From Hypoxylon rubiginosum (taxonomy: Eukaryota > Ascomycota > Sordariomycetes > Xylariales > Hypoxylaceae): a stretch of DNA of 64,000 nt. Location: the NCBI GenBank assembly GCA_902806565.1, contig CADCXA010000008.1, forward strand, positions 620,001 through 684,000. The letters run 5' to 3'. Shown here in pieces: positions 17,654 to 62,126 of the stretch. The position numbers and the translations under genes are program-made. The stretch's first letter is position 1. Every line of letters starts with the position of its first letter. Below the pieces are notes generated by a model. That model saw nothing but the letters and a program-made list of their open reading frames with translations. It was not told the origin of the DNA and searched no databases.

Positions 17654-19293
17654 TCAGTACTTAGAGGCCTCTTCCCTAAAAGCCTTCATCATAGCCTTCC
17701 AGGTGTCAGCCAAAATGTATTTGCGACCTTCCTCATCTGGTTCGACATTTTGCGTTGAGAGAAAAGCTGCCTCTTCCTTTGCGTTCTCACTGGAGTCGGG
17801 GTCTGTAGACAGTGATATCAACCTATCCACAAGGGATCTCCGCTCCGTGCTAAGCGCAGCCCAAATTGGTGTGTGACCTTCTGCATCTCGTGAATTCAAT
17901 TTCGATCCTGTCTTCACAAGCAGTTCGGCGAGCCCATCATATCCTTTCTTCGCCGCGCAATGAAGTGCCGACCGATTGTGTATAGAGCAAATCGGTTCTC
18001 CCCATCCTGGTCCGTTTAGAAAGGCGAATGAACCCCCAGCTTCGATCAGGATCTCCGCCACCCATAGATAGCAAGATTCGATCGCGATATCTAGCGGTGT
18101 TTTCGACTGCGCATTGAGGGCATTGATATCGACGTTGTGGCCTATCAGCCTTCGGGATCCGTGAACGGAACCCACGCTGGCGGCAAGGTGAATGAGAGAG
18201 TCCCCGTTATCGGCCGCGTCTCGAAAATGGAGCTCACTAAAATTTTCCACGATATCGTCATGATGTAGGCTGAAGATCACCCTAGCATGCCTCTCAAAAC
18301 GAGTTAAGTCCCGACCTTGGTCCAAGTAAAGACTCCGGAAATTGGCGTAGAGAGCATCTGCTAACGTCCAGTAAGGGTAACTAGGACCCGAAGGCATGGG
18401 TTGACAAAATTCGACAACGTGTTTGAATAGGTCCGTCTCTGGAATCAGCTTTGAAAATTGGCAATGATAGGTCCACAGGGAAGCAGCATAATCTAGGAAG
18501 GGGTGGATCTCTGCTAGTTTCTGGAATTCGATTTGATGGTTAGGTTTCCAGGATATCGCTTCGATGTCGCTTCTCGAATCCAGAATGCTATTCTGATTCT
18601 GAGTCGTCGATTCCAACGCAAAGTATCTCAGAGACTGAGACTCTGCCCAGCCACTCCTCTCCCCACAACCAAGGTAGAAGATACAGGCTTCAAGTACGGT
18701 TGCGTGTGCGTCTGAAAGTTCGATTGAATGCCGCCATGTATCCTGTACAGAGGATCGGGCTGGGTACTCCTTTTGAAGGAACTCTCTGGCTGTCTGGTGG
18801 ACCAAATGAACTTTTCCGTGGATAATTCTGACAAAGCTCCCACCGAGGAATCTGATGAAGTTCTCATGGGGCCGTCTAATGTAACGACAGAGCTCCTCCA
18901 AACTTTTGTGAGATGGTAGAACCGTTAGGGCGATGTTCATCTCCTCGACGCCCAAAGGCCTTTTTGCAGCAATAATGATTCGCAGCATCCTGTGCAAATC
19001 AAGCTTTTCACTGGAGTCAAGCATCTCGCTAACATCGCTCAGCATTGTTTGGTATAAATCAAATAATATGTTCTTGCCGGGAAGTAGATCGAGCAATTCC
19101 CTGTGCGACGCCTTTCCAGGAGACTTGTCCTGTTTCTCCAGGATATCGATCATTCGCGTTGCCCAGAGGAACGTGTTGTCAGCACCGGCCTTGAGGCCGG
19201 TCGAAAGGCTCTCTAAAGTCATGGGCATAATTTGCCTCTTTTCCTTTAGGCGTTCAAGGCGGTGGTTTATCACCAGGGATACATCGTGGTTAA
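17654..19293 (-). pseudogene. NLR (hydrolase-NACHT-ankyrin) gene, 3' half, cut off by Helitron
   Basis: A single open frame of 1,640 nt with no stop, starting abruptly at the insertion junction (INHDVSLVINHRLERL) and ending at TGA 17656-17654. It is the direct continuation of the 5' half at 33500-35354: removing 19294-33499 joins GCA A|TT AAC, in frame, through DETKAINHDV. It encodes the end of the NACHT module (TFLWATRMIDIL, then helical segments such as RMLRIIIAAKRPLGVEEMN and VHLVHQTAREFL) and at least two to three ankyrin repeats (DSLIHLAASVGSVHGSRRL, SALHCAAKKGYDGLAELL, HTPIWAALSTERRSLVDRL). Fungal NLR/STAND proteins are implicated in non-self recognition and regulated cell death. This half has no ATG context or promoter of its own that I can see, so the gene is disrupted, although its sequence shows no RIP stops. 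Confidence 0.85.
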
Positions 19294-19523
19294 TCAACTT
19301 CTCTTTATTTTATTAGTACTGCCATAATTTCACCAACCAATTATATATTTAGAATTGCCTTGTATTTTTTGATGTTTTCCTTTGTAATTCTATCACAATA
19401 AAATCTATAAAAATGTAAATAATATAAAAAAGTTACGTAAAATAAGTTTTATTAAACCATATTAATTATTAATTTTTTTAAGTTATAATAAAATAAATTA
19501 ATTAATTTTATAAAAAATTTATT

Positions 19524-20760
19524 AAATATATATTAAAATATAGTTAACTAATTAATATAAATGTTAATATAATATAAAAAAATATAATAAATTTAATTTT
19601 TAGTTATAACTTTTTCTTTTAAAAAATATACGTTAAAATATAATTAGTTAATTAATATAAATCCTATATATAATATAAAAAAATATAATAAATTTAACTT
19701 TTAATTATAATTTTTATTTTAATAAATATAATATTATATAAACTTATAATATAGTTTTTTTTTTTTTAATTAAAATTAAATAAGTTTTATAAAATTTATA
19801 ATATCTTAAATTATATTATTAGTTACCGTTTTTATAATTACTTATTTATAATATTTAATTAGTTTATATTATTAATAAAATTTATAAAAAAACATTTAAA
19901 TTATTTAAAATTATTTATTTAATTTTAACTAAATATATTTAAAAATTATTATATTTATAAAACTTATAAAAAAGCGGTTTAGTTTTTTAATTACAATATA
20001 AATAAGCTTAATTAAATTTAACTAAATATATTTAAAAAATATATAAATTTATAAAAAAATATTTTAATATATTTTAATTATTATTTTTAAATATATTTAA
20101 TTAAATTTAATTAAATATATTTAAAAAATATATAAATATATAAAATAAGATTTTAATATATTTAAAACATTTTTAAATAAATTTAATTAAATTTAATTAA
20201 ATATATTTATAAAATAAATAACTAAACCTTTAATTATTTAATTAATTTATAATTTTTACACTATGTTTATAAATTTTATAAGAAAATATTAATTTTTTAA
20301 TCGGCTTTAAATATAATTAATTAAGTTTAATTAAATATAATTAAAAAATAAATAATTTTTATTTATTTAACTTTTAGTTATTTAATTAATTTATTATTTT
20401 TTTAATTATATTTATAAACCTTATAAAAAGGTATTAATTTTTTAATTAATTTTAAATATAATTAATTAAGTTTAATTAATTATAATTAAAAAATAAATAA
20501 GTAATTATTATTTTTATTATTTAATTAATTTAGATTTTTTTTTATTACGTTTATAAAATTTATAAAAAAATATTTAAATTTTAATTTTAATTTAAATATA
20601 TTTAATTAAACTTGGTTAAATTTATTTAAAAAATAAATAACTTATAATTATTAAAGTTTTTAAAAATAATAAATATATTTAATAAAATTTAACTGGTTAT
20701 ATTTAAAAAATAAATAACTTATAATTAGTTAAGTTTTTAAAAATAAAATATATTAATTTA
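19524..20760. repeat. Degenerate tandem repeats near the Helitron 5' end
   Basis: Two adjacent copies of a unit of about 100 bp (19524-19623 and 19624-19722) share long stretches such as ATATAAAAAAATATAATAAA. From about 20000 a second family recurs with a spacing of about 130-145 bp, each unit containing a variant of AATTAAAAAATAAATAA. Low complexity makes the exact period uncertain. Confidence 0.5.
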
Positions 20761-23700
20761 AAAATAGATTATTTATATTAATTTAAGTTTTTAACTGTGA
20801 ATATTTTTTAAATATCCTATATTATATTAATAATAAAATATTAATTTATATTTATATTTATATATAATAAGAGGTTAAATTTATTTTTTTATTTTTATAT
20901 ATTTCTTTTTTTTTTTCTTGTTTTTTTATTTTTTTATTTTTATTATATTTAAGTTTTTTTTTTTATTCTTATTTAACTATAACCTAATTTTTAATATTTA
21001 TAATAAATATTATAATAAGATTAAAAATTAAAATACCAAAATGTTAGGATATTACGTGATATTTTAGGCTGTATATAGTTTAAGCTTACTATATAATTTA
21101 CTTAGATATTATATTAAAATAACTTTTTTTTAAATATTATTTTTATTATATACGGTGCTTTAATATTAATTAGATATTTATACCGATTAACGTATTTTTA
21201 ATATATCCTTTATATTTATTATTACTTATAATAACTTTTAATTATAAGATATTAAAACTATATTTTATTATAGTATTTATTTAATTTGTTAAACTATATA
21301 ATAAAATAAGTATTTTTTAATATTAAAACTTAGTTATAAAAATTTTTTAAATTTAAAGTATATAAATATTTTTTTTTGTTTTTAGTGTTATAATTATTTT
21401 TTATTTTAATAGTTAATATATTATTATTATAATTTTTTTATTTATTATAATTTATTTTCTTAAAAATATATATATATTTATTAAATTTATTTAGAAATTA
21501 AATTTATTAAATAGTTTTATATTTTAAATTAATAAAAAATAATTATTTATTAATAATATTAAATTAAAAATAATGATAATAATAATAATAAAACTAATTT
21601 TAAATAAATAAAATTAATTTATTAGTTTATATTTTTTAAAACTATAAAATTATCTTTTTATTATTTAGTCCCAGATTTTTTTTTACCTTTTTTATATAAA
21701 TTTTCCATAAGAATTATTTTTAATTATTACTTTTTAAATTAAAGTTTTAATAACTATCTATTAAATAATATAAATAGTTATTTTATAAGGTTATAATATT
21801 TTAAGGTTTTTATTAATAATAAATGTTTTTAATTATATATATAAGTTTTTTATAATATTAATAATTTTTTTAATGGATTTTTTAATGTTTTTTTTATAAA
21901 AAGCTATTTTATATTATAATTTTTTTTTTTTTTTTAGTTAATAAAGGTTTATTATTATAAAAATAAAATTTATCTTTTAATTTTTTCTAGGATTTTAATA
22001 AGTTATATTAAAAATGGTTTTATTAAAAAAATAATTCTTATAAACCAATATTATTCTTAGTTATATTTATAAATAAAAAGGCTTTTATTTTTATAAATTT
22101 ACTAGATAATTTATTTTTTTTATTTATAGTTTTTAAAAAAAATAACTTTTTATTATTATTAATATTAATTAATTTAATTATAATAAATAATAACTTAAGC
22201 TTTTTATTAAAATTTATATTAATATTTATTTTATTAAAATTTAATAAAGTGTTTAGTTTTTTTTTAAAACTTAAAAATATTAAATATAAAACCAAATAAA
22301 AATTAATAATATTAAGTATATTAAAATAAAAATTAAAATAAAATATACTTATATTTAGTTTTAACCATTATATTTTAATAATATTTAATTATTTCCAATA
22401 AAATTTAAAAGAAATTAATAATATATTAATATATAATTTAAATATTTAAATAGTTTTAATATATATTTATTTCTTTAAAATTTCTTATTTTATTTATTTC
22501 TTATATAATAAAATATATTATAATAAAATATGTTAAATATATCCTAGAAATGTTAACCTAAAAAAAAATAAGTTTTATATATATTTTTTTTTATCTATAA
22601 GTTTTTTTATTTTTTACTTAAATTTTTTACTTATATTTCCTAACTTTAATTAATATTAAATGTTTCTTTTAATTATTATTATTTTATCTGTTTTTAATAT
22701 ATAAATATTATTATATTTTAATATATAATTAAGTTTTTTTAAAGTTTATTATTATTTAAAATTAACTTATTATAATTATATATTATTTACTTTTTTTTTA
22801 CTTTTATATAATAAATATATATAAGTTTATTAAAATTTATATTAAATATAAAAAGGTTTATATATTATTTAAAATAATTTTTAATTTTTATATAAAAAAC
22901 TTTTATTATATTTATTATTTATATTATATTTTAAAATAATATTAATTATTAAATAAAATTAATTTAAATGTATTTTATTAATTTAAATATTTTTAAAAAT
23001 CTAAGATTAAAAAAAATAAAATAATTAGATAATAATAATTTAAACTTTAAAATTTTTTATAATTATTTTAAACTTTAAACTAATAGTTTTTAAAATAAGA
23101 TTATTTATTATATCCTTTATATTTTTATTATAAAAAATAACTAAACCTTACTAAATATTATAAAATTTAATTATATAATAATAAATTTTTATAGATAAAT
23201 ATTTATAATATTAATATTATAAATAAATAATATAACTTTTATAACATATTTTATTAATTTAATAAATACTTTAAAAAGAAAATAAAAAAAAATAAAACTT
23301 TTATATTTTATTATAAAAATAAAAATATATAATTAATAAAAATCTATAAACTTCTTAAGTTTTTATAATTATTATTAATTAACTTTAATTTAAAAATTTA
23401 AAAGTTTTAAAAAAATATCTAATAATTTAACTTTATTTTTTTTTTTATATTTGTTTTATATAAATTTATTAATTATAATACCAATAACTTAAATTCTAAT
23501 TATTTTTAAATTTAAAAAACCTTATATTATATAATTAGTTTTTTAAAAATAATATAAAATAAATAACTTAAATATATTTAGTTATATTTTTATAATTTAT
23601 AGTTAATTACTTAATATTAATTTATTATTAATAATAATAATTTAAACTTAAATATTTTAATATAGCTTTTTAAAAAGATTTATATAAATAATTTATATAT

Positions 23701-26700
23701 TAAAAAATATATTATAACTTAAAAATAAATATAAAAAGCTATAAATAATTTAAAGAATTTAAATATAAATAGTTTTATAATTTAATTTATATTAAAACTT
23801 AATTTAAATATAATTTTTAAAAAAAGTGTAAATTAATAATATAAAAACTTTTTAAAAACTAAAAATATTACTAATATTATCCTAGATATTATAAAAAAAA
23901 ACTAATAATAAAAAGAAATTATTTTAATTAAATAAATTATTATAAAAAAAATATTATTTTTTTATATATATGTTTTTATAAGTTATCTAATATATATATT
24001 ATTTATTTATATATTAATATAATTATATAAAAAAACTAGTTATAATTTAAATATATAACTTTATAATAAAAGTTATAAAAAAAGGAATTTATTTTTATAA
24101 TAATATTTTTAATATTATTTATATAATTATAAATAAGAAATATTAATCCTATTTATATTTAATTAACTTTTTTAATAATATTTAATTAATACTTAAATTA
24201 TTATAAAATAAGTTACTTTAAAATAATTAAAATATAAATAAAATAATTTATAAAAAACTTTTTAAAATAGTTTCTATAACACTATTTTAATTAAAAATAT
24301 TAATTTAATTAATATTAACTATAATATATATTTATTATTTTTATTTATTAATAATAAAAAATTTATATTTTATTATTATTAGGATTTAATAGTTATTATT
24401 TATTATTTAAATTAACTAACCCTTTTTATTATTTTCACTATTAATTTAAACTAGTTAAAAATAAAAAATAAGCTTTTTTTAAATTAAATTATAAGTAATT
24501 AATTTAATATTAATATCTATATTTTTAACTAAAAATAAAAGGTATTTTTAGATAATATTATAAAAAAAAATTACTTTAATAAATATTATAGTATAGTTTA
24601 AATAATTAAATACTAAAAAAAAAACTTATTTTATATATATTATTTGGTTTTTTTATTATTATTAAACTATAATTAATTTATAGAATTTATAAATATTAAT
24701 TACGTTATATAAACTAAAATTCTAAGGATTAATATTAATTTAAATAACGTTTTATAACAAGTAATATTATTTAATATAATATATAAACCTTATAATATAA
24801 TAAATTTAAAATTATTTTATATAATTAAAAACTATTATTTTAAAAATTTTTTAAAGTTGTTTTATTTTAAAACCATAGTTAAATTAAATAAATATTTAAC
24901 ATATAAATAAAAATTATATATTAAAGTTTTAAGTTATTTAAAACTAGTAAAATAAAATAATAATTAAATAATGTTATATAATTTTTTTCTTAGCTAGAAA
25001 TATTAAACATATATTAATATTAAAGTTTATATTACCATAAAAATAATTAAATATATTTATAAATATATTTATAAAAATAGTAATTAAATTATAACTTATT
25101 TATATTAAAAAAAAATATTATTATAATAAAATTAAAATTAAAATTAACCTTATAATAAAATTAATAAATATTTATATAACTACTTTATTAAATTATATAA
25201 ATTAATATATTATTTTTTAGAATTTTTAGTTTATAATATATATCTATTTATTTAACTTTTAGTTATTTATTTAAAAAAGAAGAATAAAATAAAATACTAT
25301 GTTAAAAATAATTTTAAGTTAATAGTAAAAACCTTAAAATAAAACTATATAATTTTTATAGTATAGTTTAAATATAATAAAATTTATAAAAATAATTAAA
25401 ATATTTTATATTAAGATTTTCTATATTTATTTTAATGGTATATAAAAAAAAAATAAATAAAATATAAATGAAAAGTGGTAGGAAAGCTTAATTAAATATA
25501 TTTTATTTATTTAAAAGTTAATAAAAAATTTTATTTATAAATACTTTTTATTTTAATTTTTAAAACTAAAAATTAATTTAATTTAATAAAATATAATAGT
25601 ATTTAATACTTAATATTTTAAAACGCCTACCAGGTTTAAGGCTTTTTAAAAAATAATAATTATTAAAAGAATTTTTTTAAGAAAATATAAATATCTTTAA
25701 TTAATAATTAATTAAAAACTGTTTTTATATATATTTTATAAAAAAGTAATATCTAGAATTTAGTTTATATTTAAAATAAGTTTTAAAAATTTATATATAA
25801 TAATTTAATATAAATATTTAATAGGATATAAAACTTACCTAGTTTAATTAAAACTACTTATTTAAATTATAATTTATATTTAATTAAAGTAATTACTATA
25901 AGCTTAAAAAATTAAAATAAAACAAGCCTCTCTTTATTTTAATTTAATTAAAAAAAGGTTTATATTAATTACTTATTTAAAAAAAAGTTAAATTATAATT
26001 ATAATATTAAAATAAACTTATATAATAAAGCGCTTTTAATATTAAATAATAATTAATATATTATATATAATATTATTATAATAATTATTAAATAAACTTT
26101 TTTTTTTACACATTTTTATTTATAAGGCTTAGTTAGAACTAAGAAAATCTTTTTATATTTAATGTTTTATTATTATTATTAATTAAAAAAAAAAATTATA
26201 TTATATATGGTTTTATTTAATATTATAACACTTTTATTACTTAATAAAAAAATTATTTATTTATAATTTAAAATTCTTATTATTTTAAATAGTAATTTAA
26301 TATATAATATTTAAAAAAAATTAATAAAAATAAATTTTTTTTAATAAATATTACTAATTATTTAAAATAAAATTATTATATAATATAAATATATATTTAA
26401 AATAGTTTATAAGATATTATATAACATATAAAAAAATTAATTTTTATTTAATAAAATGTTTATTTTATTTAAAAAAGATTTTATATAAATTTTACTTATA
26501 ATTAAAAAAGGATTAAAACTATAAATTATTAACATTTATCTATAAAATTTATTTTTATAGTTTAAACTTTAAAAATTATACCTAATAAAAAATATAAAAG
26601 TTTAATAAAATAATATAAAAAATATAAAGTTCTTATAATAACTTCAAATAATTTTTTATAGTTTTAAAGTTAATAAATTAATATTATTATTTAATATAAT

Positions 26701-29630
26701 AAAAATGTTTAATAATATTAAAAACTTTTATAATTATATTTATTTAAAAAAAATCCTAGATAATATATTATATAACTTAAACGTTTTTATTTTTAAATTT
26801 ATTTTATTTATATATAACATGTTTATATAAAAAATTAATAATAATTTATTATTTAACATTTTTAAAAAAAAATAAAAATATTTTTTAATAAATAAATTTA
26901 TTAAAATAAATAATTAACAAATTAAAAAAACATTAATTAAAATAATTTAAGTTTTATAGCTAAGAAAAATACCACCAGCTAAATTAAAATTAAAAGTTGG
27001 TTTTTTTATTATAATATTATATAATTTAAATCTTAATTAAAATTTTTATAACAATATTTAAATAATTATAACTTAACTTAATAAATATAATATAAAAGTT
27101 AAGATTTTTAATAAATTATTTAATAAAATAAAACATATTTTATTAAAAGTTAAATTAATTTAAAATAATAAAAACTAGTTATTTATATAATTTAAATAAT
27201 AGTTCTTAATATTAGTTTATTTTATTATAATTATAAATAAGTTATAAAAATAATTTTTTAATATAATTAATATTAATTAAAAGATTCTTATATTTATATA
27301 TAAATAGTTTTATATAATTATATTAAAAATTAAATTTATTTAAAAATTAAAAGTTTTAAAAATATTAAAAATAAAATTTAATAAACTATTAAATATTATA
27401 TATTTTAAAATCTTATAAAAATTAATAAATAATTAAAAGAAAATACTATAAATGATATTATATTTAATATATATATAAAATGTTTTTAATTAATTATTTA
27501 ATTTATTTTTATTTTTTAAAATAAAAAATCCTATTATATTTTAACTATTTTATTTTTTTTATTATATTAAGCAATTAAAATAATAAGTTATAAATCGCTT
27601 TAATTACTTTAAATAAACGAGTGTTAATTGGTTTTTATTTTATTATAAGCTTTATATTTTTCTTAGTTATTAATAATAAAATGTTATATTAAAAAAAAGT
27701 TAAAATTAATATAAAAATATTAACCAGTATATTACTTATTTTAATATATTTATTAATAGTTATTAAAAAAGTTAATTATTATTATTTAAATTTATTAATA
27801 TCTATATATTATATATTAAGTTAATAAAAATATTTATTTTTAATATTATTATAATAATAACTAATATATATATTATTAAAATAATTAAATAAAATAATAT
27901 AATATTAAAATTTATTATTATTTATTTTATAGTTAATATAACTTTGTTTTAAGGGTAAAATAATATTATATATTTATATGTAAATAGTTAATAATAATTA
28001 AAATTTTTAGGTTAATTAAAAAAAATTAATATAAATTTATTTTTATAGTTAATAATTAATATTTTATTTAACTTAATTTTTTTATAATAATAAACTTAGT
28101 TTTTATATTATATATTTAATGAAAAAGTTTATTTAATAATAAGTTATTAAATTATTAATAAAATATTTATTTAAAAAAATAATAAAATTTAATATATATA
28201 TAAATTATTAAATATTAAAACTATAATATTATTTATTTTTATTTTTTTAATTTTAACTAAAATTTATTATATATATTTAATTAAATCTTTATTGTTTTTT
28301 AGTATAAAATAATTGTTATTTTTATTAATATAATAAAAAATCTTAAGTATATAAAATAAAACTAAAAAATAATTTAATTTATTTTAATTTAAAACTAATA
28401 TTTATTTTTAATTAAATTTAAAAAAGTTAAAATAATTTATATTATAAAATAATAAGTTTAATAAATAAAAGCTGGTATATTAATTATTATTATTTTAATT
28501 TATAAAATTATAAAATTGTTTTTTTAACTTAATAATAATAGTTATTATAAATACCGTTCTTATAATATAAAAAAGTTAAAATAAAATTAAAAGGTTTTTT
28601 AAAATTAATAAAATTCTTTAAAAAATATTCTTTATAAATTAAAAAAAAATTTTATAAATTATATAAATTTAAACGATATTAATTAAAAATAATTATAAAA
28701 GTTTATAAAATTTAAAAGTTTAAATTAAATAATTATTTAAATTAAATAAATAAAAAAAATATTAAATAATTTAAAATTAATATTATATAAATTACGTTTT
28801 AATAATAGTTTAAAAAAACATATAATAATTAAATATATGTTATATATTAAAAATAAATTAATTTGAAATATATATAAAATAATAAAAAAAATAAAAATTT
28901 TAAATAAGTTATAATTATAAAACTAATTAATGTTAAAAATAAGCTTTAAATAAATAAAAATTATTTAATTAAATGTTTTTAATTTTATATTATAAAGTTA
29001 TAATATAAAAAAAGGTTTTATATTTTAAAAATATAAAAAAATATTAACTTAAAATTCTTATTAAATAATATATAAAATAATAAATTAATTTATTAAATTG
29101 TTTTTTTTTTATTTATATATATATATTTTATAAAATATTATTTTTATAAAAATACTTATTTAAAAAATATTATAAATTATATATATAAAAAAGTAATATA
29201 TAAAAAAAAATCCAACCTTTTTAATTATAATATATTAAAAAAAACTTAATTTTTTATAAATAAAATATTAAAAGAAATTAAATTTTTTAGTGAATATAAT
29301 TATTATAAGTGTGCTTAGGAGTGATTTTATGGTTAATTTTAAAATTAGTATTAATAAAGGATTTAATATTAGTAAAAAATTTAATATTAATAAAAATTAT
29401 ATAAAAAATAGTTAAAATAAAATAATTTTTATAATAATTTAAATTTTAATTATTATTATTTATTAAATTAAATATAAATATAAATAATTTTAAAATAAAA
29501 TTAAAATTAATAAGTAAATAAAATAATATAAGTTTAATTTTAATATTTAAATATAAAAAACTAGGCTTAGTTTTTTTTTTTTAATTAAATTAAAAATTAT
29601 TATTTAAATCGCTAAAAAAAAAAAGTTAAA

Positions 29631-29668
<38 letters not shown>

Positions 29669-29860
29669 TTTCATTGTTACTATTATTATTATTATTAATA
29701 AGTTTAAATTATTTAATATATATTAAAAATATTAATTTCTTATAACGATATTTTTAAAAAAAATATTTAAAATTATTATTATTATTAAACTTTATTTATT
29801 TAATATATATTAAATAAATTAAATGTTTATTTAAATATTTAGTATTACTTTTTTTTTTAG

Positions 29861-29950
29861 TTTTATTTACGTTTTTTTCTTTAATTTTATTTATATTTTT
29901 TTCTTTAATTTTATTTACGTTTTCTTTTTTAACTTTATTTATATTTTATA
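29861..29950 (+). repeat. 24-bp tandem repeat inside Helitron
   Basis: Units at 29861-29884, 29885-29908 and 29909-29932, then a partial fourth. Unit form TTTTATTTAYRTTTTTTTCT plus TTAA. Units differ mainly by CG versus TA, the pattern left by C-to-T and G-to-A change after duplication. Confidence 0.7.
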
Positions 29951-31915
29951 AAATTTTATTAATATTATGTTTTTAATTAGTTTTTTTAATACTAATAGCT
30001 TTTATTTTAAAATTAAGAAGTTATTTTATTGTTATTATTTATTATATAAATTATTTATTATAAAGGTTTTTATATTTAAAAAAAATAATAAAATATTTTT
30101 AATAAGAAGTATTATTATTAAATATTTTAATTATTTTTTTAATAAATAAAGCTTAAATAAAATAAATAAATAAAAGTTTAATTAAAATATAAGGAATTAA
30201 ATAAAGGAAATAATTATAAAATAATATATATATTTTAATATTTATATTATAATATTTAATTAATAATTAAAAAATATATAATATTAAATAAAATTTATTC
30301 TTTTATTTAAGGTTTAGTTTTAAATAAATAATAATATAATTCTTATTTTAAACGTAATAAAAATCTTAGTAAAAAACATATAATTAAAAAAAAAAATATA
30401 AATAACGTTTAATAAATTTTTTATAAAATATATATATATTTAATTAACTAATAACTAAAAATTTATAATTTTAAATATAATATAATTATTCTTTAACTTT
30501 ATTAATTATAATATAAAGATGTAATAATTATAGTTAAAATTAAATTTAAAATCAATATAATTAAATAAGTTATTAATATATATATTTTTTTATTACTTAA
30601 ATATATTTTTATAAAAAAAAAACTAGTGTTTTTAAAAAAAAATTATTAAATATAATATATTAATTATAATAAAAATAATTAATATAAATATATATATATA
30701 ATATTTAAAATTAATTATAATATTTAAATATATAATTTATATTTATATGGTTTTTATAAAAAACGTAAAAATAATAAATTTTAATATTAATTAAATTATT
30801 TTAAGATACTAGTAAATAAAAAATAATTTAATTAATAAATAAAATAAAATATAGTTTTTATATATTTTTAGTATCATTTTAAATATTTTTAATAATAATT
30901 ATATAAATTTTATAAAATAATAAATAATAAAATTTATTATTATTAATAATATATAAAATAATTAATATATATAATAAATTATATTTAAGATAAAAAATAT
31001 AAATAATTTTTTAAATCTAGTTAAATATATTATTATTATTATTAAAAAATATAATAATTATAAATTTTTCTTTTAAATTTATTTTATATTTTATATTAAT
31101 AAAAAATATATTAATAAAAAATAAATATTAAAGTAAAAAATAAAAAATTAAAATAACATTAAAAAATACTTATATATTATATAACTTACTTATATATATA
31201 AATAAATAATAAATTATTAATATTTTAAGTTTTAAAGTAACTTATTATTTAAATAGTTTATATAAATAGATTTTTATAATTTTATTTATATTATAATAAA
31301 TATAATTTTTTATTATTTATATATATTTAAATTTATATATATTATATTTATATATTTAAAAATAAATAATATTAATAAATTATATTATTTAGTTTATAAA
31401 TTATTATTATATAATTTATATATATAGTTATAACGTAAATTTAATATATATTATCTAAAATACCTAAAAATAAAATTATTATTTAGTTTTAATTTTTTAA
31501 ATTATTTTAATATAATTTTTAATATTAATTATAAAATAGTTTATATTACTTATATTATTATTATTAATAATTATTAGTATCTAATAGTAAAAAAAAATAT
31601 TAATATATTATAAATATATAAAAATAAATATAATTTTTATATTTTAAAAATCTTTAAAAACGAATTATTTATTATATTTAATTATAAGATTTTATTATTT
31701 AATAATTATTAATAAATCTAATTAATAAATAATATTAAATATTTTTTTATTATAATATTATAATAATTATTTAAGTTTATTAATAAAATAATATTAATAA
31801 ATAATTATGTTTTTTATTTAAATTTTAATTAATAAATAATATTTATTATTTTACTTTTATTATAAAAAAAAATAATAAGTTTAAAATATAAACATAATAA
31901 ATTAATTATAAGTAA

Positions 31916-32005
31916 ATTAACTTTAAATAAATTAATTTTAAATAAACTAATTTTAAATAAATTAACTTTAAATAAATTAACTTTAAATAAATTAACTTTA
32001 AATAA
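31916..32005 (+). repeat. 15-bp tandem repeat, six units, inside Helitron
   Basis: Six contiguous units of ATTAACTTTAAATAA with single C/T differences. Seen directly. Confidence 0.8.
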
Positions 32006-33463
32006 TAAGAAAATATTTTTATAAACTTTAATTATTAAAATTATAATAAACTTAAAAAAATTAATAAATAATTATAACTTTTTAATTAAAACTTATTGTT
32101 TTATAAAAGCGTTAATTAAAATTAAAATAACTTATATTATATTAAAAGTATATTTAATTTAATTTAATAGTTATTATATATAAAATTTTATAACCTTATT
32201 TTTAAATATAAATAATTTTTTTAATAATAATAAAAATTAAATAATAATTTAAAATAATATTTATTATTTATTTAATTATAATTATATAGTTATAATATTA
32301 AAAAAAAATAAAAATAAAAATAATAAATTAAATAAATTATATATATTATAAATTTATATATTAAATTTATTAGGATTTTTTATTAATAAAAATTTATTAT
32401 ATTTAAATTTTTATTATAATATTAAATATTATTTTATCTTAAAAACACCCCTTTAATATATATTTATATATTTTATTTAAAGTTTAATATATAATAAAAT
32501 AATTTTATTATTTAAAGATAAAAAAGTAATAAAAAATTAAAAATTTAATTTATTATTAATAAAATTTTAAAAAAATAAATGTTATAAATAAAAGTTATTA
32601 AAAATTTTAATTAAAATATATAAATTATAAATAAAAATGTTAAAAATAAATAATTAAAAAAAGGGGAAAAAATAAAATAAAAATTAATAGTTAAGAGGCT
32701 TAAAATTAAAAGGCTTAAAGTTAAAAGGTTAATAATTAAAAAATAATTATAAATATTATTTTTTAATTTTAAAAAAAAACTTTTTAAATTTAAATTTAAA
32801 ATTTAATAATAACGGTTTTAATGTTTATTATTAGTATTATAAGAAAGTTTTTATTATATAAAAATAAAATAAATTAAAATTAATAATTAATAATAATAAT
32901 TATAAAAAAAAGTTTAAAATTAATAAAAAACTAAAAATAAAATATATAAAATTAATATTAATTTTAATTTATATTAAAATTAAATAACTTAAATTTATAT
33001 TTAGTGATATTATATTTAAATTAAATATTAATTTAATTTTATTATTTAATAATTTTATTAATAATAATAATAATATTTAAACTAATAATAAATAAAATTT
33101 TAATAAATATAAATATAATAACATTTTAATAGTTAAAAAAAATAATAATCACTAATTAAAAAATTTCCAAAAAAAAAAATAGTAAAATTTAAATAAAAGT
33201 TTAGAAAAAATAAATATAAATATAAATATAAAATATAAAATATAAATAAAATAATTAATATAAATATATTAATTAAAAAAAAATAATATAAATTAATAAA
33301 AGGTTTTAATAAAAAGTAATAAATTTAATAATTAAATACCAGTTTTATAATTTTTATTTTATATTTTTATAGATAAATTTTAATTAATTTAAATTATGTA
33401 AAGTTAATATGGTGCGATGGTGAAATGCTTATATAATCTAAAAAAAAAACCCATAGCTTCTCT

Positions 33464-33499
33464 CCTGGCCGTGCTTGCACGGCCGGGTTGCGCAGCTAG
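33464..33499 (+). other. Helitron 3' terminus: hairpin and CTAG
   Basis: The perfect 8-bp stem GGCCGTGC/GCACGGCC with a TT loop extends to 11 bp (33464-33487) with one T-G pair. CTAG at 33496-33499 follows and the next base, T33500, is host sequence. The hairpin acts as the 3' replication end signal in this transposon class (established knowledge). Confidence 0.8.
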
Positions 33500-35354
33500 T
33501 TGCTTTGGTTTCGTCTTCTCCTTTCAGCCTTGTGGCGTGTTGAAAATCCATCAAGGCGTCTTTGATCCAAAATTTCGGACGGCTGAGTATTATCAACTTT
33601 AGATAGTGCGTAGGAGTATTATCCAGTTCCTTGCAGAGTTTATTAATAGCATGAAGTAAGTTTTCCATGTCATATCGTAGACATTCATCTATGCCATCTA
33701 GAATGCAAACGACATCCGCCAACCCAGGATCCCTGACAATCGCTCTCAGCACCTTGAGCAACCTGTTAAAGTCAGTCATCATCTCAGCGCCCTTTAGTTC
33801 ATATTCAGAAGACAGATGTCTTATAAGCGCTTTATTACGCAAGAGAATCTGATGAAGGATAGCACGGAGAGCTAGTACGGTGTCATGCTGCGCGGAGTTG
33901 CCGTCTTTGAAAAAGAAATGGCATATTGACTCCTGGTAGCCAGTCGGACGTCGCGTGGATCTTAGGTGATCGACTAAGAATTTTGCGAGGGTTGACTTGC
34001 CACAACCTGGGTTGGCTGATATCCATAGGAGGCTGGATTGCTCTCCGTTTAACCATTCTCTATATTGAGAATGTTGTAGAAGCCACTCGCAAGTACCTGG
34101 GGTCCGAGTTACGTTGAAGTCTTTAAAGTCTTCATAGTCTTCATAGCTTCCAGGATATAGGGCTCGCAAGCATTCTAGATCTGACAAAAAATTAGACTAG
34201 GGCGAACCACATAGCATTTATTAAGTGTCTAGGTCGTACTTGTTACGGGAATCGCTTCATTCGCCATGCATTCAATGGTTGCCAAGACCACTTCCAATGA
34301 TGGGTCGCCTTTTTTTGTGAATTTGCATATGGACCGATGATCACCATTCAGAGGAACAGGGGTTTCATTTGGCAAATGAAGCAAAGCAGAATCTTTCGGC
34401 ACGACCTATGAGGGTTGTTAGTGAAAATCTCGCCGCTCGGGGCCTAGGGCAGTAGACTTACTATGAAGTTGACTCCATCGAGTTTATACGTTTCATAAAA
34501 ACTCGTTATGTTGAGCCTGGCACCTGGTTTAACGAAGGATTGAGAGATACCGAGCAGCTCTTTTGACTTCGTTTTCAGACCATTTAGAATTGTAGTCCGT
34601 ATACCAATGGGTACGATTTTGGCCACGTTGCCCAATAAAGCGGCCCAGTCTGCAACTTCAGAACCTCGGTGAGGAGTGCCAAAAAATGCAACCCCCTTAA
34701 CCTCTTCCAAAAGTGCATTATATTGGTTATGCTCGTGCGCCTGAATAAGGGCCTGGAGTAAGAGATCTTGTCAGTATTCTAAAGGACATTTCGTAAATCA
34801 TAGAAGAAAAGGAGTTTCGCTACCTTCTTGAAGACAATTCCGCCTAGGCCATGGCAAATAAATAGAATCGGTCGTCTCTTCTCTGCCACTGTGCGTCTCT
34901 TCACCACTAGTCCCAAGAGAAGCTGCTGAGCGTAGTCAAAGTCGGCAACTGATTGGCTGAACACGGCAGAATCATAGCCAAACGACATGACCCTAGCACT
35001 TGGAATTGCCTCGGGGAGAGCAGCTTCAAGCCAATTATAACGTTGATCGGAACCCGGCACTTGCGCGCTCCAAGTGTCCATGTAGTGTCCATTCAGGCCA
35101 TGTATCGCAACAATATCGATACCGCCCTCCTGCTCACTAGGCTTCTCAACCAGAACGAACAATCCATGCTTTTTACCGGATCCTGTATGGGTTGCTTGCA
35201 GCTCGGCTGTAGCTGAGGAAACGGGTTCCTTAGATGCTACGTCGGCTTCGGTTAGGATCGAGGAACCGGATTCCGCGGATGTTAGCTGAGACTCAGCCTT
35301 GTTCGAATAAGAGAGGCGCCAGAGGGCCTTTCGAATGTATCTTAACTCCGGCAT
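33500..35354 (-). pseudogene. NLR (hydrolase-NACHT-ankyrin) gene, 5' half, cut off by Helitron
   Basis: Exons 35354-34824, 34752-34462, 34405-34240 and 34180-33500, with introns of 71, 56 and 59 bp that have good GT..AG ends and CTGAC, CTAAC and CTAAT branch points. Start ATG 35354 (MPELRYIRKAL); codons upstream reach only GTG. With the 3' half the gene encodes about 1,102 aa. Domains: an alpha/beta-hydrolase of the SesB/PGAP1 type (VAIHGLNGHYMDTW, FICHGLGGIVFKKAL, VAFFGTPHRGSEVADW), then a NACHT ATPase with Walker A ANPGCGKST, Walker B CILDGIDE and sensor-like LIILSRP. The expected nucleophile in GHSxGG reads CHGLGG, Gly for Ser, so hydrolase activity is doubtful. At the insertion the frame runs 20 codons into the Helitron tip and stops (33438), predicting a 576-aa hydrolase-NACHT fragment. 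Confidence 0.87.
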
Positions 35355-35594: not shown

Positions 35595-35648
35595 TACTTG
35601 CGCGGGTTGAACACACCCATCCCCTTGTGTGTTCAACCCGCGCAAGTA
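35595..35648. repeat. Perfect 22-bp inverted repeat with 10-bp spacer
   Basis: Arms 35595-35616 and 35627-35648 are exact reverse complements; the spacer is CCATCCCCTT. The first 20 bases from 35594 recur at 3775-3794. CTGG followed by T lies 12 nt after the right arm (35661-35665), which resembles a Helitron 3' end, but CTRR is common by chance. Could be a MITE, a Helitron terminus or a remnant of a larger element. Confidence 0.75.
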
Positions 35649-48359: not shown

Positions 48360-48682
48360 TGTAACAAGGGTCTATATCAGAGACTTAGAATAGCTTTAAT
48401 TTAATATAATAATCTTTACAGGTCCTAAGGTCCTTAATTTCTTTCAATTTAAATAGGAATTTAAGGCCTTATTTATATCTTAAAATTACTACTTAATTTT
48501 TACCTTATTACCGCTTTAAGCGCCTAACTAACATATATTAATCTTGTTATTTTAATTTAAGTTATTTTTATTTATTTAACTTTAATTAATTTATATATTA
48601 ATATATAAAATATATATTTATTAAAATTTATAATTATAGGTTTTTTTAATTAAATAAACTATTTAAATTAAACTATATAATA
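48360..48682. repeat. Left LTR, 323 bp
   Basis: Aligns with 55020-55342 over its whole length without indels; the mismatches I checked are C/T or G/A. The outer (left) edge retains normal composition, while the inner part is AT-saturated. Confidence 0.9.
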
Positions 48683-51600
48683 TTAGTTTTTTTTTTTTTA
48701 AACCTTATTTTAAAATATTATTTTATAAATATAAAAATTTATAAATTTCCTTAATTATTACTAGTAAAAATTTTTAATAAAATATTTAACTTTTTTATTA
48801 AATAAATAATTATAAGGTTTTTAAGTTTAATATTTTTTAATAAACTATTTTTTTTATTTAATTAAATATTTTATTTTTTTTAAATTTTTTATAAAGTTTT
48901 TTATTTTTTTTATTTAATAATTTTTTATTTTAATTAAAATTATTTTTTATAAAATTTAATTAAAGTTAAATAATATTTAATTATTAACGCGATAAAGTTT
49001 AATAAAAAAAATATAAAATAAATTATAAATTTTTTAATTTTTAAAAAATATAAGTTTTATAATAATTAAAAAGATTATTTTTTAAATCTTAAAAAATCTT
49101 AATATTTTTTAATCTAGCTTTTTTATAGGTTTTTTTATTTTTACGTTTTTAATATTTAATATAACTAGTTATTTTTTAATATATTTAAAATTTTTAATAT
49201 ATTTTTTATTTATTTAAATTTTTATTTATTACTAGTTTTACTTAAAATATTTTTAAGTATTTTTTTAGATTTAAGTTATTTAATAAAAGTAAAATTAGTT
49301 TTTTAAGTTTTTAAATGTTTTAAATAAAAAATTATACGTCGTGAAATAATAACTATAATTAATATAAAAAAATATTATATAAAAAAAAAAAAAATTATAT
49401 TATTATAAATAAATTTAACTATAAAAAATAGGTTTTTTTAATTGTTTATTTTATAATTAATAAATAATTATAAATAAATTTTAAAAGTTTAATTAAATTA
49501 TTTAATTTAACCGTTAATTTAAAAATAAAAAGCTATATTTATATAAAATTTAATATTTATTAACTTAAAAAAGTTTTTTTATAAGTGTATTATAAACTTA
49601 AAGTTTTTATTAAAAATAATATTTAATAATATATTATATAGTTTTTAATATTTTTTAATAAAAATTTTAATAAAGTTATTAGTTTTTTTTTTTTTATTTT
49701 AAAAGAAATAAAATAAGCTATCTTTATAAAAAAATCTATTATTATTTATATAAAATCATATTTATTTAATAATAATAAATTTATAATAAAGTTTATTATA
49801 ATAATATATTAAAATTTATAATAAAGTTTTATAAATTAAAAAAAACCGTAAAATACGTGTTTTAAAATTTTATTTCTTTAATATTTTAAGTATCTTTTAA
49901 TATATTTTCTAATTATATTTTCTAAGTTAAATTATTAAAAGTTATAAATTATTAATTCCATGGTTTTATTTATTTTTATATAACTAGTAATATATATATT
50001 ATATTTAAACTTTATAATTTTTTACTATAAAACTATTAATATTTATAAGTGGTTTTTATAGTAAAATAAATTATTTTATATTTTTATATTTTTTTTTAAT
50101 TAAATCTTTTATTTTAAATAAATAAAATCTTTTAATATAACTTTTTTAAAATTCTTTATAAATTTTAATAACTATTATAATATTTTAAAATTATAAAATT
50201 ACTTTAATATAAATAAAATAATAATTAAAATAATAAATATAATTCCTTATAAATACGAAAAATATTTTTCTTATAAAACCAAAATAATTAACTAATTTTT
50301 AACCTTTTTTTTTTAAAACAATATTATAATAATTTAAATAAAATATTAATCTTTTTATTTTAATATTTTAATTAATAATTAATAATAAATTAATATAAAA
50401 CAAGTTATTAAACTTATTAAGTTTATTTTTAGTTTAATATTTTAATAATAATAAAATAAAAAAAGTTTTAATAATTAGAATAAACCTTAATTTAATAATA
50501 TATTTTTTTAAAATATTATTTTTATTTCTTAAAAAAGTTAATAATATTTAATAGTTCCTTATTATAAATTTTATAATTTATTTTGGTTAAATTTAGTTTT
50601 TAAAAATGGAATATTATAAAGTAAAATTTCCTAGTTTTATTTTTTTAAAATAAAATTAATTTTATTATAAAATTTAAGGCATTTATTTTAATATAAATAA
50701 TTAAATTTAAATTAAAATAAGTAAAAACTAAAGCGGTTATAAATTAATCTTTTAATATTTTAAAAATAATTAACATTAATTTTATTTATTTTTAATTTTT
50801 CTTATCTTTTTTATTAATATTTATTAAAAGTTTAATTATTATTAAAAAATTATAAATAAAATATTAATAAAAGTTTATAAATTTTATAAATTATTAACAT
50901 TTTTTAAAGCTAATTAAATTTTCTTATTTTTAAATACTTTTAATTTTATTTAAACTTATAAATATATTATTAACTTTAATAATATATTTTAAAAATTTAA
51001 TTTTTTAAACTTTTTAAAAATATTTTTTTAGTAATATAACCAAGTAATATTTTATTAGTTATTTAAGAATTTCTTTTATTAAAATATTATATTTTTTTTA
51101 AATATCTTTATAAATAAAAATATTATTAAAATAAATAAATATATTAATATTAATTAAATTTTAAAAAATATTATTTATTATAATTTAAAAGATTATTAAA
51201 ACGTTAATAAGTTTAAAAAATATTACTAAATATTTATATAAACCATATTTATATTTAAAAATTATTTTTTATTTGTTTTTTTCCTTAATTTATATAAGGT
51301 TAAATTTAAATTTAAAGTTAATTTTAATAAAGAATTTAATAATTTTAAATTATACTTAAAATTTTATAATTAAAAAAATTAAATAATAAATTAATATAAT
51401 AATAATATTAAGTTTTTAATAGTTAATAATAAGTTATAATAAATCTTTTAAATTTATTTTCTTAATAAATATTATTAAAATAATATATAATAAAATAAAC
51501 TTTTTAATTTTTTTTATATTAATTATTTTTTTTAGTTAAAACTTTAAAGTAAATAATTTTTTTTTATTTATAATATAAAAAGGTTCTTAAAAAGATATTT

Positions 51601-54600
51601 TTTTTTTATAAAAATTTATAATATAATCTTAAAATTAATAATTAAGGAATTATTATTTTACTTTTTAAATTATAATTAAGTAAAATTCTTAAAATTTCTT
51701 AAAAACATTTCTAAATGTTTTTTAAGTATTTATTTAAATTATAATTAAAATAAAAAAAAATGTTAATAAGTTTATTAAAATCTTATTAATATAGTTTTTT
51801 TTATAATACTTAAAAATAAATTAAATTCTTTAAATTTAAAAGAAAAAATAAACTAATTAATATTATTTAAACCATTATTAAAAAAAATAATATTACATTT
51901 TTTATTTAAGTTAATAAGTTTAAAATTAAAATAAGTAAAATAATTTTTCTAATATTATAATATAAAAGTTTTTAAATAGAATTTACCTTTTTATTTAAAT
52001 ATTAAAATGTTAAAATTCATTATAAATTAAAAATATTATTATTTATAAATAAGGATTTTTTATTAATATATTTTAAAGAAAAATATAACTAATATATTAT
52101 TTTTTATATTTATAAACACCTTTATTTAATATTTTTTATTATTATAAATAAATGTTATTTTATAAATAAATTAACTTTTAAAATATAACTTAGAAGTTAA
52201 TTTATTAAAAGTTAAAAATCTTTTATAATTTATAGTTTAATATATTAAAAAAAAGTGTAAAAATTTATTAAAGTTTTTTATAACTTTATATATTTTTTTT
52301 AATTTTAATTATTTAATAAATAAAATTTATTATAATTCTTATATTTTAATTAAAATAAATTTATTATTAAGCTATTAATTTTTTATTAATATAATAAAAT
52401 AACTATTTAAAAATCTAAGTCGGAGTTTTTTTTTTTAATAATTTTTAAAAAAAAAGGCTTTATTAAAATTAAATTAATTTTTATTTTTTTTATAAATATA
52501 AAAACTAGTGTTATATTATTATTAGATTTTTATTTTATAAAAGTAACTTTTTTTAAAGTTATAAATAATTCCTTTTTATTAATATTCTTTTTTATAAAAT
52601 AAAATAAAATGTTATAATTATTTTTTTTATAATATTAATATAAATATTTATCCTTTTTATATTAATTAATATCCGTTTAATTAATTCCTTATAAAGTTTT
52701 TTTATTAAAAACTTAATGTTTATTTTTAAAATTAAGTTAGTTATTATTTATTTATCGATTTTATTTTTTTAAAAATTAATTTTAATTAAATTTAAAATAA
52801 TTATTTTTATTATAAAATTAATAATTTAATTTTAATTACTTTGTTATTAAATCGGGCTTGTTTTTTCTTAATAAACTAAGGTTTATAAATATATTTTTAT
52901 AAATTTACCTAGCTTTTTAAATAATATTAATAAATTTTTTATTATTATTTAAAAAACTTTTTTAATAAAAATATATTAACTTAATAATTTTATTTAATAA
53001 AATTTTAATAATATAATTTAAAAAAAGTATTTTAAATTATTAAACTAATTTATTAAAGTTTAATATTTTAATAAAATATTAAATTATATTTTTATAATAT
53101 TTAAGCTTAGATATTTTTTTTAAGTTATAATATTTTTTTAAAAGGTTTTTAAAATATTCTTTTAAAATAAGTTTATAATTTACTTAAAAATTTATAAGTT
53201 TTATTTATTTTATTATTTATAATTTTTACTAATATTATATTTAAGTTTTATTTATTAATAAAAACCTTATTTAATTAATATAATAATAATTTTTTAAAAA
53301 GCTTTTTATATATATTTTTATATATAATTTTACTTTTAAATATTAAGGTTAAAATTTAAAAAGGTTTTTATTATTATAAGTAGTAAATTTATTAAAATAT
53401 ATAAAATTAATAATAATAAAAACAAAACAAATTAATTATTTAAATATTTAAACTAATTTATCTTTTAATATAATTAAAAAAGTTAATTTAATATATAAAA
53501 TATAAAAAAGTAACGGCCCTTATAAAGGTTTTAATAATAGCTTATTTTTTTTATTATTAAAATTATTTAAGTTACTATTAAAATTATTAAAAAAAAGTAA
53601 TAAATTTCCTTTTTTATTTCCTTTAAATATAAAAAGTTTAATTTAAATAAAATTAAATTAAATTTAAATATTAATGGTAATCCTTTTAATTTAACTAATT
53701 TATAAAGTTTAAATAAATAATTAATTTCTTATTTTTACTTTTAAATTAAAATATATAAATAAAAAATAAATATTAAAAATAATATTAATTTAAATTAATT
53801 ATTAAAAGTTAAATTTAAATATAACTTATTCTTTTATATTTTTAAATACTAATTATATATTAATTAATTAATTAGTGGTTAATTATTTAATAAATTTAAT
53901 AAAAATAATTTTAATATATATTTAAAAATTTAATAATTACTTTTAAAAAGTTTAATTTAATTAAACTAAATTAATATATTTTTAAATAAATAATTTATTA
54001 ATTTAAAAGTTTTTAATAATAATTTATTTAACGATTTTATTTTAAGTTTTTTTATAAATATTAAAATTAATATATAATAATTTTAAAACTAGGTATTATT
54101 TTTAGGTAATTTAAATTAATTTATTAATTATAGTTTATTATACGGTATTATTATCTATAAACTTAATAATAATTTTTTAAACTTATTATAAAAATATTTA
54201 ATTAAACTATTTAATTTAATGTTTAAAATTAATAATTTAAATAGTTAATATTTTAATTTTTATATTATATATTTAAATAATAATATTATAAATTATATAA
54301 AAAATATTATAATTTTCATGGATTTTTTAGTTTTTTTAATAAGTAATATTTACTTAAATAACTAAAATTTAAATAATATTATAAAAGTTTTATATTTAAA
54401 TATAAAATTATAAAATTTATTTTAAAAAGTTAATAATAATAATATTAAATATAGTAAAATTAAAAATATTTTTTATAATTAATTTATAATTTTAAAATTA
54501 ATAAAATATAAAAATTAAACTTTTAAATTAAAATATTATTTTTATTTTAATAGGTTTTTAAACAATAAAAAAGATATTAAGTTTAATAAAAAATCTTTTA

Positions 54601-55019
54601 AATTTTTAACAAGGAAAAAATAAAAAAGATTTTTATTAATATTATTTATATAAAAAATTAATTAGTTAAAAGGTTTTTTTAATTAAAAGGATTTTAAATT
54701 TAAATTCTTTAAAAAATAAAATAAACTTTTCTTATTTTAATAGTTTTAAAATAAAATATAATAAAATTATTAATAAAAATAATAATAATATTAAACTATA
54801 AAAAAATTACGTTAAAATAATAATATAAATTACTTTAAAAAAAGTATTTTTTAATAATAATAAAAAAATATTACTTATTAAAAAAAAAAGTTTTAAATTA
54901 TTAAAAAAAGTTATAAAATAGTTAATTTAAAGTAAAAAAGTTTTAAAATATTTAATGTTTTAAAAGTTTTTATTAATTATTTAAATTTAATATAATTTTT
55001 AAAAAAAATAAAAATTATT

Positions 55020-55347: not shown

Positions 55348-56207
55348 GAAGATACCAATTAGAGCCAACTGGTGTTCTATATCTTTCACAATATAAAGAA
55401 CCATGATAGATAGAATCGGTAGCATGGAGGCGATAACAGTGCAGATAAACGCGGAAGCCGAGATGAGACGAGCGTCATCGTATGTTGCGATACCGGTATC
55501 TGCAGACGTTGGGGAAGATAGGCTATGCGACTTCAGGAGAATTCTATATATACTCTCTACCTAAACCAGGGTCAGTATAGCCTGGACACGAGGAAGAAGA
55601 GCCTTTCAACACACTGTGGTGCTGTGTCTGAGACGATGATAGAGGGGCAAAGCTCTGCCGGCGACAAACCTGGAGAAGCGATTGGTATGAGGAGGCGGTA
55701 CCAAAGCCATAAGGTCTCTGCCTTGTGACCACACATCGTGATCACGGCCGAGCAGATACACGCCTCCTAGCCTTGGCTCCCTCAGCCAACACTGGAGTTT
55801 CTGTAGATCGTGTGGATCCGGAGCAGGTATTTTGGACAGTTGGCAATACTGCATTACAGCATCATCTGTCTGGTATAAGCACCTGCGTGGTTTACCCAGT
55901 GGATGAACTGACTGTATTCCTTTAGTACCTTGCGGAGCTGTAGCCACTTTTCCCACTGCTCCCCGGCGCCGGGTGTGTTATGCACGTGGGCAAGCGTGTA
56001 CCAGTCCAAAGCGAAGTCGCGTCTATCTTCTTCGCCGGAAGAGTCATTATCGGTTTCCAGCTTGTCAATGTCTCTCTGCAGGTTAGTGATTTCAGCTTGT
56101 AGATAGAGAATGTTTTGCAAGTTCAACGCGGCGAAACGGCGCACTATGGCATCTTCAGGGTGATTTTGTATGAATGATGCGATTTTGGAATATCCTTTCT
56201 TGTTCAT
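55343..56207 (-). pseudogene. DUF6594-type gene, 5' part, cut off by LTR retrotransposon
   Basis: Exons 56207-55913, 55865-55615 and 55560-55343 (then 48354-48165 beyond the insertion), with introns of 47 bp (GTCAGT..CAG) and 54 bp (GTGTGT, CTGAC branch, TTAG). Joined, the gene encodes 292 aa, the usual size of the family. The N-terminal GYSKIASFIQ, the block FAALNLQNILYLQAEITNL, the pair LRKVLKEY/NDAVMQYCQL, LQCWLREP and DLMALVPP fit DUF6594 (a fungal family of unknown function with an N-terminal helical domain and C-terminal membrane helices). The first helix is SASAFICTVIASMLPILSIM; the insertion sits inside the second (LALIGIFSA|MFSSALWFM). Reading into the LTR adds 12 codons, then TAA (55308-55306). 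The 47-bp intron is the least certain element. Confidence 0.82.
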
Positions 56208-56509
56208 TCCGTCCTTGGAGTATATATCACGATGAGATTAACAAGTTACAAGTTAGGTGTTTTCCAGAGAATCTAACAAGGCGGCTTGAAATTCCGCCAA
56301 TTGATATTATCGTAAGGCGATAAGGCTCGGTTTATGGCTGCTTATGCGGCTGCACCATTCGGGCTGTGGGCCCAGATAGCCAATAGGATAGCGGACTATA
56401 AGACCTAAAACCGCCAACCCCGTTAATTTCTAACGGTCCGTATTTCTTTTATTAAATACTGTGGTTCTAACACTGTATTTGCCTTGTAATTATAAGGGGC
56501 TTAATGTTA
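56208..56509. promoter_or_regulatory. Upstream region of the DUF6594-type gene
   Basis: About 300 bp of normal composition between the gene start and the third AT-rich block. It contains AGCCAATAGG (around 56378), a CCAAT-type element. The AT-rich block begins within what should be the promoter. Confidence 0.4.
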
Positions 56510-57174
56510 TATATTTTATAAATAAAAATATTATATATTATTAAATTTATATTATAATTTTAATATTATTTTATTTTATTTTTATTTTTTAATAAACTTA
56601 AAATAATAAACCTTATAAATTTATTAATAAATTTATTATATTATAAATTTATTATATTATAAATTTATTATTTTTTTTTAAAATAAAAATTTTTAAAATA
56701 ATATTTTTTATTAATTTTATTATATATTATTATTTAATTTATAAATTATAATTTATTTTTTTTATAATTTAATTAAAATTAAAATTAATTTTTTATTATT
56801 TTATAATTAAAGTTTTTAATTTATTAAACTTATTAATAAGTTTTTAAAAATATTTTAACTTATTTTTTTTAGTTATATTAAAATTATTTTTTAATTATAT
56901 TAATTAAGTTATTATATTTATTATTATTATATTTTAAATATTAAATTTATTAACTAAGTTATAAATATTTTTATATAAATTATAATTATTTATAATTTTT
57001 TATATAAAATAAACTACGTGGTTTTTATTATATATAAAAAAATTTAAAATAATATTAATTTTTTTAATATAATATTAAATAATATAATAAAAAATATTTA
57101 ATTTTTATAAAATATTTTTTATTTAGTTTTAAATTAATATATATTTTATAATTTTTATTATTAAATTTTATAAA

Positions 57175-62085: not shown

Positions 62086-62126
<41 letters not shown>

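Follow-up and report, generated by a model that had tools for sequence, protein, structure and literature searches.

In a 64,000-nucleotide stretch of the genome of Hypoxylon rubiginosum, a wood-inhabiting fungus of the Xylariales, a NOD-like receptor (NLR) gene on the minus strand is interrupted by a full-length Helitron of 14,206 bp. The stretch (contig CADCXA010000008.1, positions 620,001 to 684,000) is referred to below as the window, and coordinates are counted from its first base. We consider it very probable that a canonical Helitron, unmutated at the time, inserted between an A and a T in the last exon of the NLR gene and was afterwards degraded in place by repeat-induced point mutation (RIP); the allele is broken here, while another lineage retains the same stretch unbroken.

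The insert lies at 19294-33499 on the plus strand and has a G+C content of 6.8%, within host DNA of ordinary G+C. Its first bases, from 19294, are TCAACTTC... and its last, up to 33499, are ...GCTAG; it is flanked by host A at 19293 and host T at 33500. The start of the insert reads TCAACTTCTC, and the 5' end of the element (TCAACTTCTCTTTATTT...) forms a partly RIP-spared shoulder at 19294-19393. At the 3' end, a subterminal hairpin with a 10-bp stem and a 4-nt loop (33464-33487) is followed by eight bases and the terminal CTAG (33496-33499), and then by the host T. The fold of this hairpin as DNA has a z of -2.98, with 1 of 200 shuffles equally good, and the hairpin sequence recurs with minor variation in 30 fetched 3' ends. 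Neither terminal sequence occurred by chance in 100 shuffles of the window. The original prediction, made from the letters of the window, had given the same coordinates, TC start, hairpin-CTAG end and A|T junction, all of which are correct, but its claim that the reading frame fixes both ends to the base went too far. Because the element opens with T and the host sequence also resumes with T beyond it, A|TC...CTAG|T and AT|CA...CTAGT|T yield an identical empty site, and the exact ends are settled by the TC...CTRR-in-A|T convention and not by the reading frame. PMC5148889 raises a comparable caveat, a one-base T ambiguity, for the Helitrons of Fusarium.

The interrupted gene was modelled as exon 1 (34824-35354, with the start codon at 35354), exon 2 (34462-34752), exon 3 (34240-34405) and an exon 4 split by the insertion into an upstream portion (33500-34180) and a downstream portion (17654-19293, ending in the stop codon), with introns at 34823-34753, 34461-34406 and 34239-34181. 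The coding length is 1,669 nt to the junction plus 1,640 nt, or 3,309 nt, which is a sum of the two lengths and not the length of a reassembled gene. Of 150 splice solutions that keep the frame, this model ranked first when splice sites were scored with a simple scheme built for this analysis. The upstream half encodes a DUF676-like hydrolase in exon 1 (E = 1.2e-5) and an NPHP3_N domain in exon 4 (E = 9.9e-38), and also matches NACHT; the downstream half encodes ankyrin repeats and a winged helix that scores below its cut-off. The locus therefore has the architecture of a fungal NLR, with an N-terminal effector, NACHT and C-terminal repeats in one gene, and the break falls between the NACHT and the winged helix. 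The splice model and the domain matches bear out the hydrolase-NACHT-ankyrin gene of five exon pieces that had been proposed. The hydrolase motif reads CHGLGG (34839-34856), compared with CHSLGG in the Daldinia relative P0030, and presumably the catalytic serine is replaced in it. A perfect 22-bp inverted repeat with a 10-nt loop (35595-35648) lies about 240 bp upstream of the start codon.

The uninterrupted state was found as a protein. A search with the downstream half alone retrieved P0001, a 640-residue Logan protein, which was aligned to the two halves separately and not to a joined protein. P0001 agrees with the upstream half at 93 of 94 residues, ending ...DETKA; its next residue is Ile, as predicted for the junction codon A|TT; and it agrees with the downstream half at 540 of 545 residues. 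The identity is 634/640 when the predicted junction Ile is counted. P0001 crosses the junction as DETKAINHDVSLVI, exactly as expected if removal of the insert joins the halves in frame. An allele without the insertion, which the original prediction had proposed to look for, thus exists as a protein with zero residues gained or lost; the empty site was not seen at the DNA level. P0001 is without the N-terminal part of the NLR, and the uninterrupted state covers its stretch rather than the whole gene. The homologues P0002, P0003 and P0005 likewise span both halves, and P0030 ends before the break point. Because four homologues span the junction, the halves are parts of one gene and not of different genes, the outcome that had been named as counting against the insertion. 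The contig of P0001 is 25,095 bp long, as is that of P0111, a piece of the Vps54 gene that neighbours the NLR, so the two are probably on one syntenic contig. P0111 is identical at 735/735 residues to P0034 from NCBI H. rubiginosum and differs from the Vps54 of the window at 3; the window Vps54 and P0034 are 99% identical. Judged from these sequences, another H. rubiginosum lineage retains this stretch of the NLR unbroken.

We searched the genome (48,274,338 bp in 70 contigs, the window being on contig C8) for both ends of the element. For the 70-bp 3' end, 41 matches were obtained, of which 40 extend along its entire length (40 of 48 candidates scored), and 41 matches were listed for the 100-bp 5' end (40 of 138 candidates scored). 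For comparison of the ends, 30 5' loci and 30 3' loci were fetched. All 30 of the 3' ends have CTAG followed by T. At the 5' ends, the preceding base is A in 29 of 30, and the start is TC in 23 and TT in 7; the TT starts are a RIP-type change from TC. Both ends therefore recur at dozens of places under the same A|T rule; a genome search for such ends had been proposed with the original prediction. With a 5' TC or TT end, a 3' hairpin followed by CTRR, and insertion in A|T without target duplication (the last seen in the uninterrupted allele as protein), the family is, by the ends of its genome copies, a canonical (Helitron1-type) Helitron.

Exact patterns detected 84 5' ends (30-nt pattern) and, among 3' ends, 51 with the long hairpin and 59 with the short one; ends too diverged to fit these patterns escape this count. 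For 102 known 5' ends, the closest partner was sought among 120 known 3' ends, on the same strand and no more than 30 kb away. This produced 80 pairs and left 22 5' ends unpaired. Among the pairs, 45 are 263-366 bp long, 13 are 570-799 bp, 18 are 13,852-14,476 bp and 4 are 19.7-23.7 kb; 58 pairs thus fall at 263-799 bp, and the interval from 0.8 to 13.8 kb is empty. The window copy belongs to the 18-member class, and the four largest pairs presumably carry nested inserts. At one locus (L046, G000:C41:555974-556674) two short copies stand in tandem, and the 17-bp flank that separates them recurs behind the second copy, as though replication had overrun the 3' end and then entered the element again.

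The composition of the insert is that of a RIP-mutated repeat, with C to T and G to A transitions, an excess of TpA and a loss of CpA/TpG. The TpA/ApT ratio is 1.15 inside the insert versus 0.72-0.82 in the flanks, and (CpA+TpG)/(ApC+GpT) is 0.28 inside versus 1.23-1.29 in the flanks. The mutator was presumably RIP acting in the sexual cycle. The same damage is found in other copies. Six of the 30 fetched 5' loci are short elements; in the remaining 24 long loci the G+C content 200-1,500 bp inside the element is 3.0-13.4%, and in all 30 3' loci it is 2.4-15.7%. The host DNA is clean, with a median G+C in the first 50 bp outside of 43% at 5' ends (44% for the 24 long loci alone) and 37% at 3' ends, and 45-54% further out. 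The outer 50-75 bp of the element are largely spared. Across 24 loci, with five short copies as the reference, 14-24% of C/G sites are changed in the outermost 75 bp of the 5' end, 48-51% at 76-125 bp and 83-88% at 226-275 bp. At the 3' end, the median G+C drops from 68% over the final 50 bp to 20% over the adjoining 50 bp and is ≤10% deeper inside. The spared 5' shoulder is variable and reaches about 450 bp in the C29:1380989 copy (L055); an octamer resembling the 3' end inside this copy was rejected as internal sequence and not a terminus.

The timing of the damage was assessed from the C/G states retained in each copy. With site means removed, the mean pairwise correlation is -0.027 at the 5' end (sd 0.091) and -0.034 at the 3' end (sd 0.065), where independent copies would give about -1/29; damage is thus nearly independent from copy to copy. 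Within a copy, the two ends are damaged to a similar extent (Spearman 0.84, 15 pairs). Because retained sites are nearly uncorrelated among copies and both ends of a copy agree, each copy was mutated individually after landing. Of the 15 paired copies, three full-length ones (L055/L028, L050/L016 and L058/L019) keep 8-16% G+C and are less degraded than the remaining 12; they are perhaps the youngest insertions. The window holds other AT-rich blocks of about 6-7% G+C at 48500-55000 and 56500-64000, separated by an island of about 1 kb with higher G+C, in which two overlapping open frames match DUF6594 (55606-56237). Apparent homology of the element to the AT-rich blocks at 47.5-64 kb was discounted, since matches of about 65% in both orientations reflect the AT background.

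A helicase remnant was recognized in a full-length sibling on contig C27, where a PIF1-helicase match (C27:528494-529069, E = 2.2e-11, 19 stops) lies about 6.5 kb from the 5' end on the expected strand. The homologous stretch of the window copy (26042-26617, plus strand) is collinear at 91% DNA identity and is unrecognizable as a helicase. A tblastn search of the window copy with the longest frames of 11 helicase loci returned nothing at E = 1, as did reversed and shuffled controls. With locally built PIF1 and Rep profiles, run on all six frames with stops written as X, the scores of the element did not exceed those of shuffles, and a genome search with the Pfam PIF1 profile at E up to 10 gave no match in the window. 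The genome has seven places matching PF14214 (Rep), none inside the listed paired copies of the family, whose Rep domain may have been erased by RIP. Open genes with Helitron_like_N and PIF1 domains occur on contigs C60 (L076/L085), C25 (L079/L088) and C66 (L080/L091), with frames of 1412, 2108 and 1439 aa. They apparently belong to other Helitron families, because they lie away from the listed ends of the family described here.

On the account that we favour, the Helitron would still have been unmutated when it entered the last exon of the NLR, landing between A and T without target duplication, by rolling-circle transposition as is expected of its family. RIP would then have acted on the window copy because the family is multicopy, mutating it in place to about 5-7% G+C and leaving the element tips and the host NLR largely untouched, with a broken allele in the sequenced strain as the outcome. 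Several observations weigh against this account. Among the 30 fetched 5' ends, the seven with TT had boundaries shifted by two bases, the match having begun at base 3, and one end (L037, a short copy) is preceded by G and not A. The PIF1 match is present in only one listed paired copy, that on C27, and neither Rep (PF14214) nor helicase domains were detected in the window copy. The empty site is known as protein and not as DNA. In the 5' shoulder, C to T changes show a weak dependence on context, at 40% of CA, 39% of CG, 34% of CT and 19% of CC. Two pairs of loci, L015/L030 (r = 0.35) and L036/L054 (r = 0.25), share more retained sites than the mean, and the 5' alignment included the six loci with short elements, where host DNA makes up most of the inner stretch.

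Since the outer tips with the cis-acting ends are largely spared in the copies examined, dead copies are possible substrates, and a RIP-dead copy could have been mobilized in trans and inserted already AT-rich. We regard this as very unlikely; the RIP sites common to copies are little beyond chance, and even with A/T at most sites, the most similar pairs reach 95-96% identity at the ends. There is hardly any prospect that the insert is spliced out as a giant intron from a gene that still works. The frame is indeed open up to and past the junction in the same phase, but the insert, read on the minus strand, has CT at its start and GA at its end where an intron would have GT-AG, and a fungal intron of 14 kb would be exceptionally long. 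It is just as improbable that two unrelated gene fragments, or an assembly artefact, surround a generic AT-rich block. The further AT-rich blocks in the window are potentially hard to assemble, but both ends of the insert are defined by the family and P0001 and three other homologues span both halves; unless P0001 is chimeric, it refutes this explanation.

For the NLR, the insertion has the likely consequence that the full protein is lost. The open frame of the upstream half runs into the element for 20 codons, the first sharing one host base, and then meets a stop (33438-33499, minus strand), and the downstream half has its first Met at residue 22 past the junction Ile. The start codon, exons 1 to 3, the upstream portion of exon 4 and the short open tail are intact, and the locus might make a functional truncated hydrolase-NACHT protein that lacks the ankyrin part and ends in 20 residues from the Helitron tip. 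This is improbable, though less so than the alternatives above, because such a product would have lost the winged helix and the repeats, and its message would enter the insert, AT-rich DNA of a kind that is usually silenced.

We compared the window copy with the other copies for which both ends were fetched. These are 15 in all, of which 14 come from the 18 copies of 13-15 kb and one from the 4 larger copies. The window copy is bordered by open runs of 232 codons on one side and 499 on the other. In the other copies, the open run on the shorter side reaches 78 codons in one and is ≤36 in 13. When the left flanks of the 30 5' loci, that of the NLR included, were cut at random 600 times, 40% of the cuts reached 60 codons and the 99% point was 226. 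Gene hits look rare among surviving long copies, a pattern to which selection or insertion preference might each contribute. Fungal NLRs are a gene class that is often dispensable and polymorphic. Because the window copy is the only one of the 15 with long open frames on both sides, and because of this dispensability, the NLR hit may be a tolerated insertion.

The family also comprises short relatives. Six short loci were read (L037, L040, L045, L046, L052 and L060), five with copies of 342-352 bp and one of 634 bp, together with the second tandem copy in L046. These copies begin with the family 5' end and finish in CTAG|T. Of the 45 shortest copies genome-wide (263-366 bp), 44 pair with a different 3' hairpin end, CGGGTCACGYAGCTAG. 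The G+C content of short copies, measured in 7 of 58, is 33-42%, with 54% for the 634-bp copy; in the 24 long loci, it is 7-38% over the initial 350 bp, the highest value being that of the C29:1380989 copy. The natural reading, from these seven, is that short copies escape RIP by their shortness. Tentatively, and with somewhat less than even confidence, we suggest that the sparing of edges and short repeats by RIP shaped a two-class family within one genome, with no copies of intermediate size found. The 14-kb copies would be destroyed by RIP after landing but retain usable cis-ends, and derivatives of 0.26-0.8 kb, which have the family 5' end and would largely escape RIP, could keep spreading. 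Against this suggestion, two of the seven measured copies (L045 and the second L046 copy) are the lowest at 33-34% G+C and may be mildly RIPped.

The element resembles canonical Helitrons (Helitron1) in its 5' TC, its 3' hairpin near CTRR, its insertion in A|T without target duplication and the PIF1-type remnant in a sibling; it differs in that the family is about 13.9 kb long and its full-length copies examined are RIP-degraded. According to sections of PMC5148889, the FoHeli elements of Fusarium oxysporum are likewise fungal Helitrons with ends confirmed by pre-insertion sites, and RIP marks are reported for FoHeli1 in F. solani; unlike the present family, FoHelis have asymmetric terminal inverted repeats, end in ATTTT or CTCCTGT and are about 5-11 kb long. 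The DUF676-type hydrolase, NACHT and ankyrin repeats resemble fungal NLRs with alpha/beta-hydrolase N-termini as described in portions of PMC9815663, whereas the window allele is split between NACHT and winged helix and has the CHGLGG hydrolase motif. The Podospora NLR pseudogene nwdp-1, described in PMC12222747, is a parallel case, disrupted in one strain but with apparently functional counterparts in other strains; there, the break is due to stop-codon mutations and not to a transposon. Among the open-licence papers listed on Helitrons, on the Hypoxylon genome and transposable elements, and on NACHT and heterokaryon incompatibility, as judged mostly from listings and abstract openings, none describes this insertion, and the sampled text of PMC9910759 and PMC12543289 does not mention Helitrons.

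The Helitron family and the natural broken NLR allele are thus both of known kinds, and the case is unusually well documented. It is a natural example in which the insertion, its precise target, the uninterrupted allele and a later RIP-type attack can all be read, and it documents canonical Helitron ends in an ascomycete. The damage sharply respects the boundaries of the repeat, with a median of 37-44% G+C in the first 50 bp outside and 45-54% farther away, versus about 5% inside. The polymorphic break in the NLR could serve as a test case for allorecognition. The more novel part is apparently the two-class, RIP-shaped size distribution; if that reading is true, the broken NLR allele would be one casualty of the long class of this Helitron.

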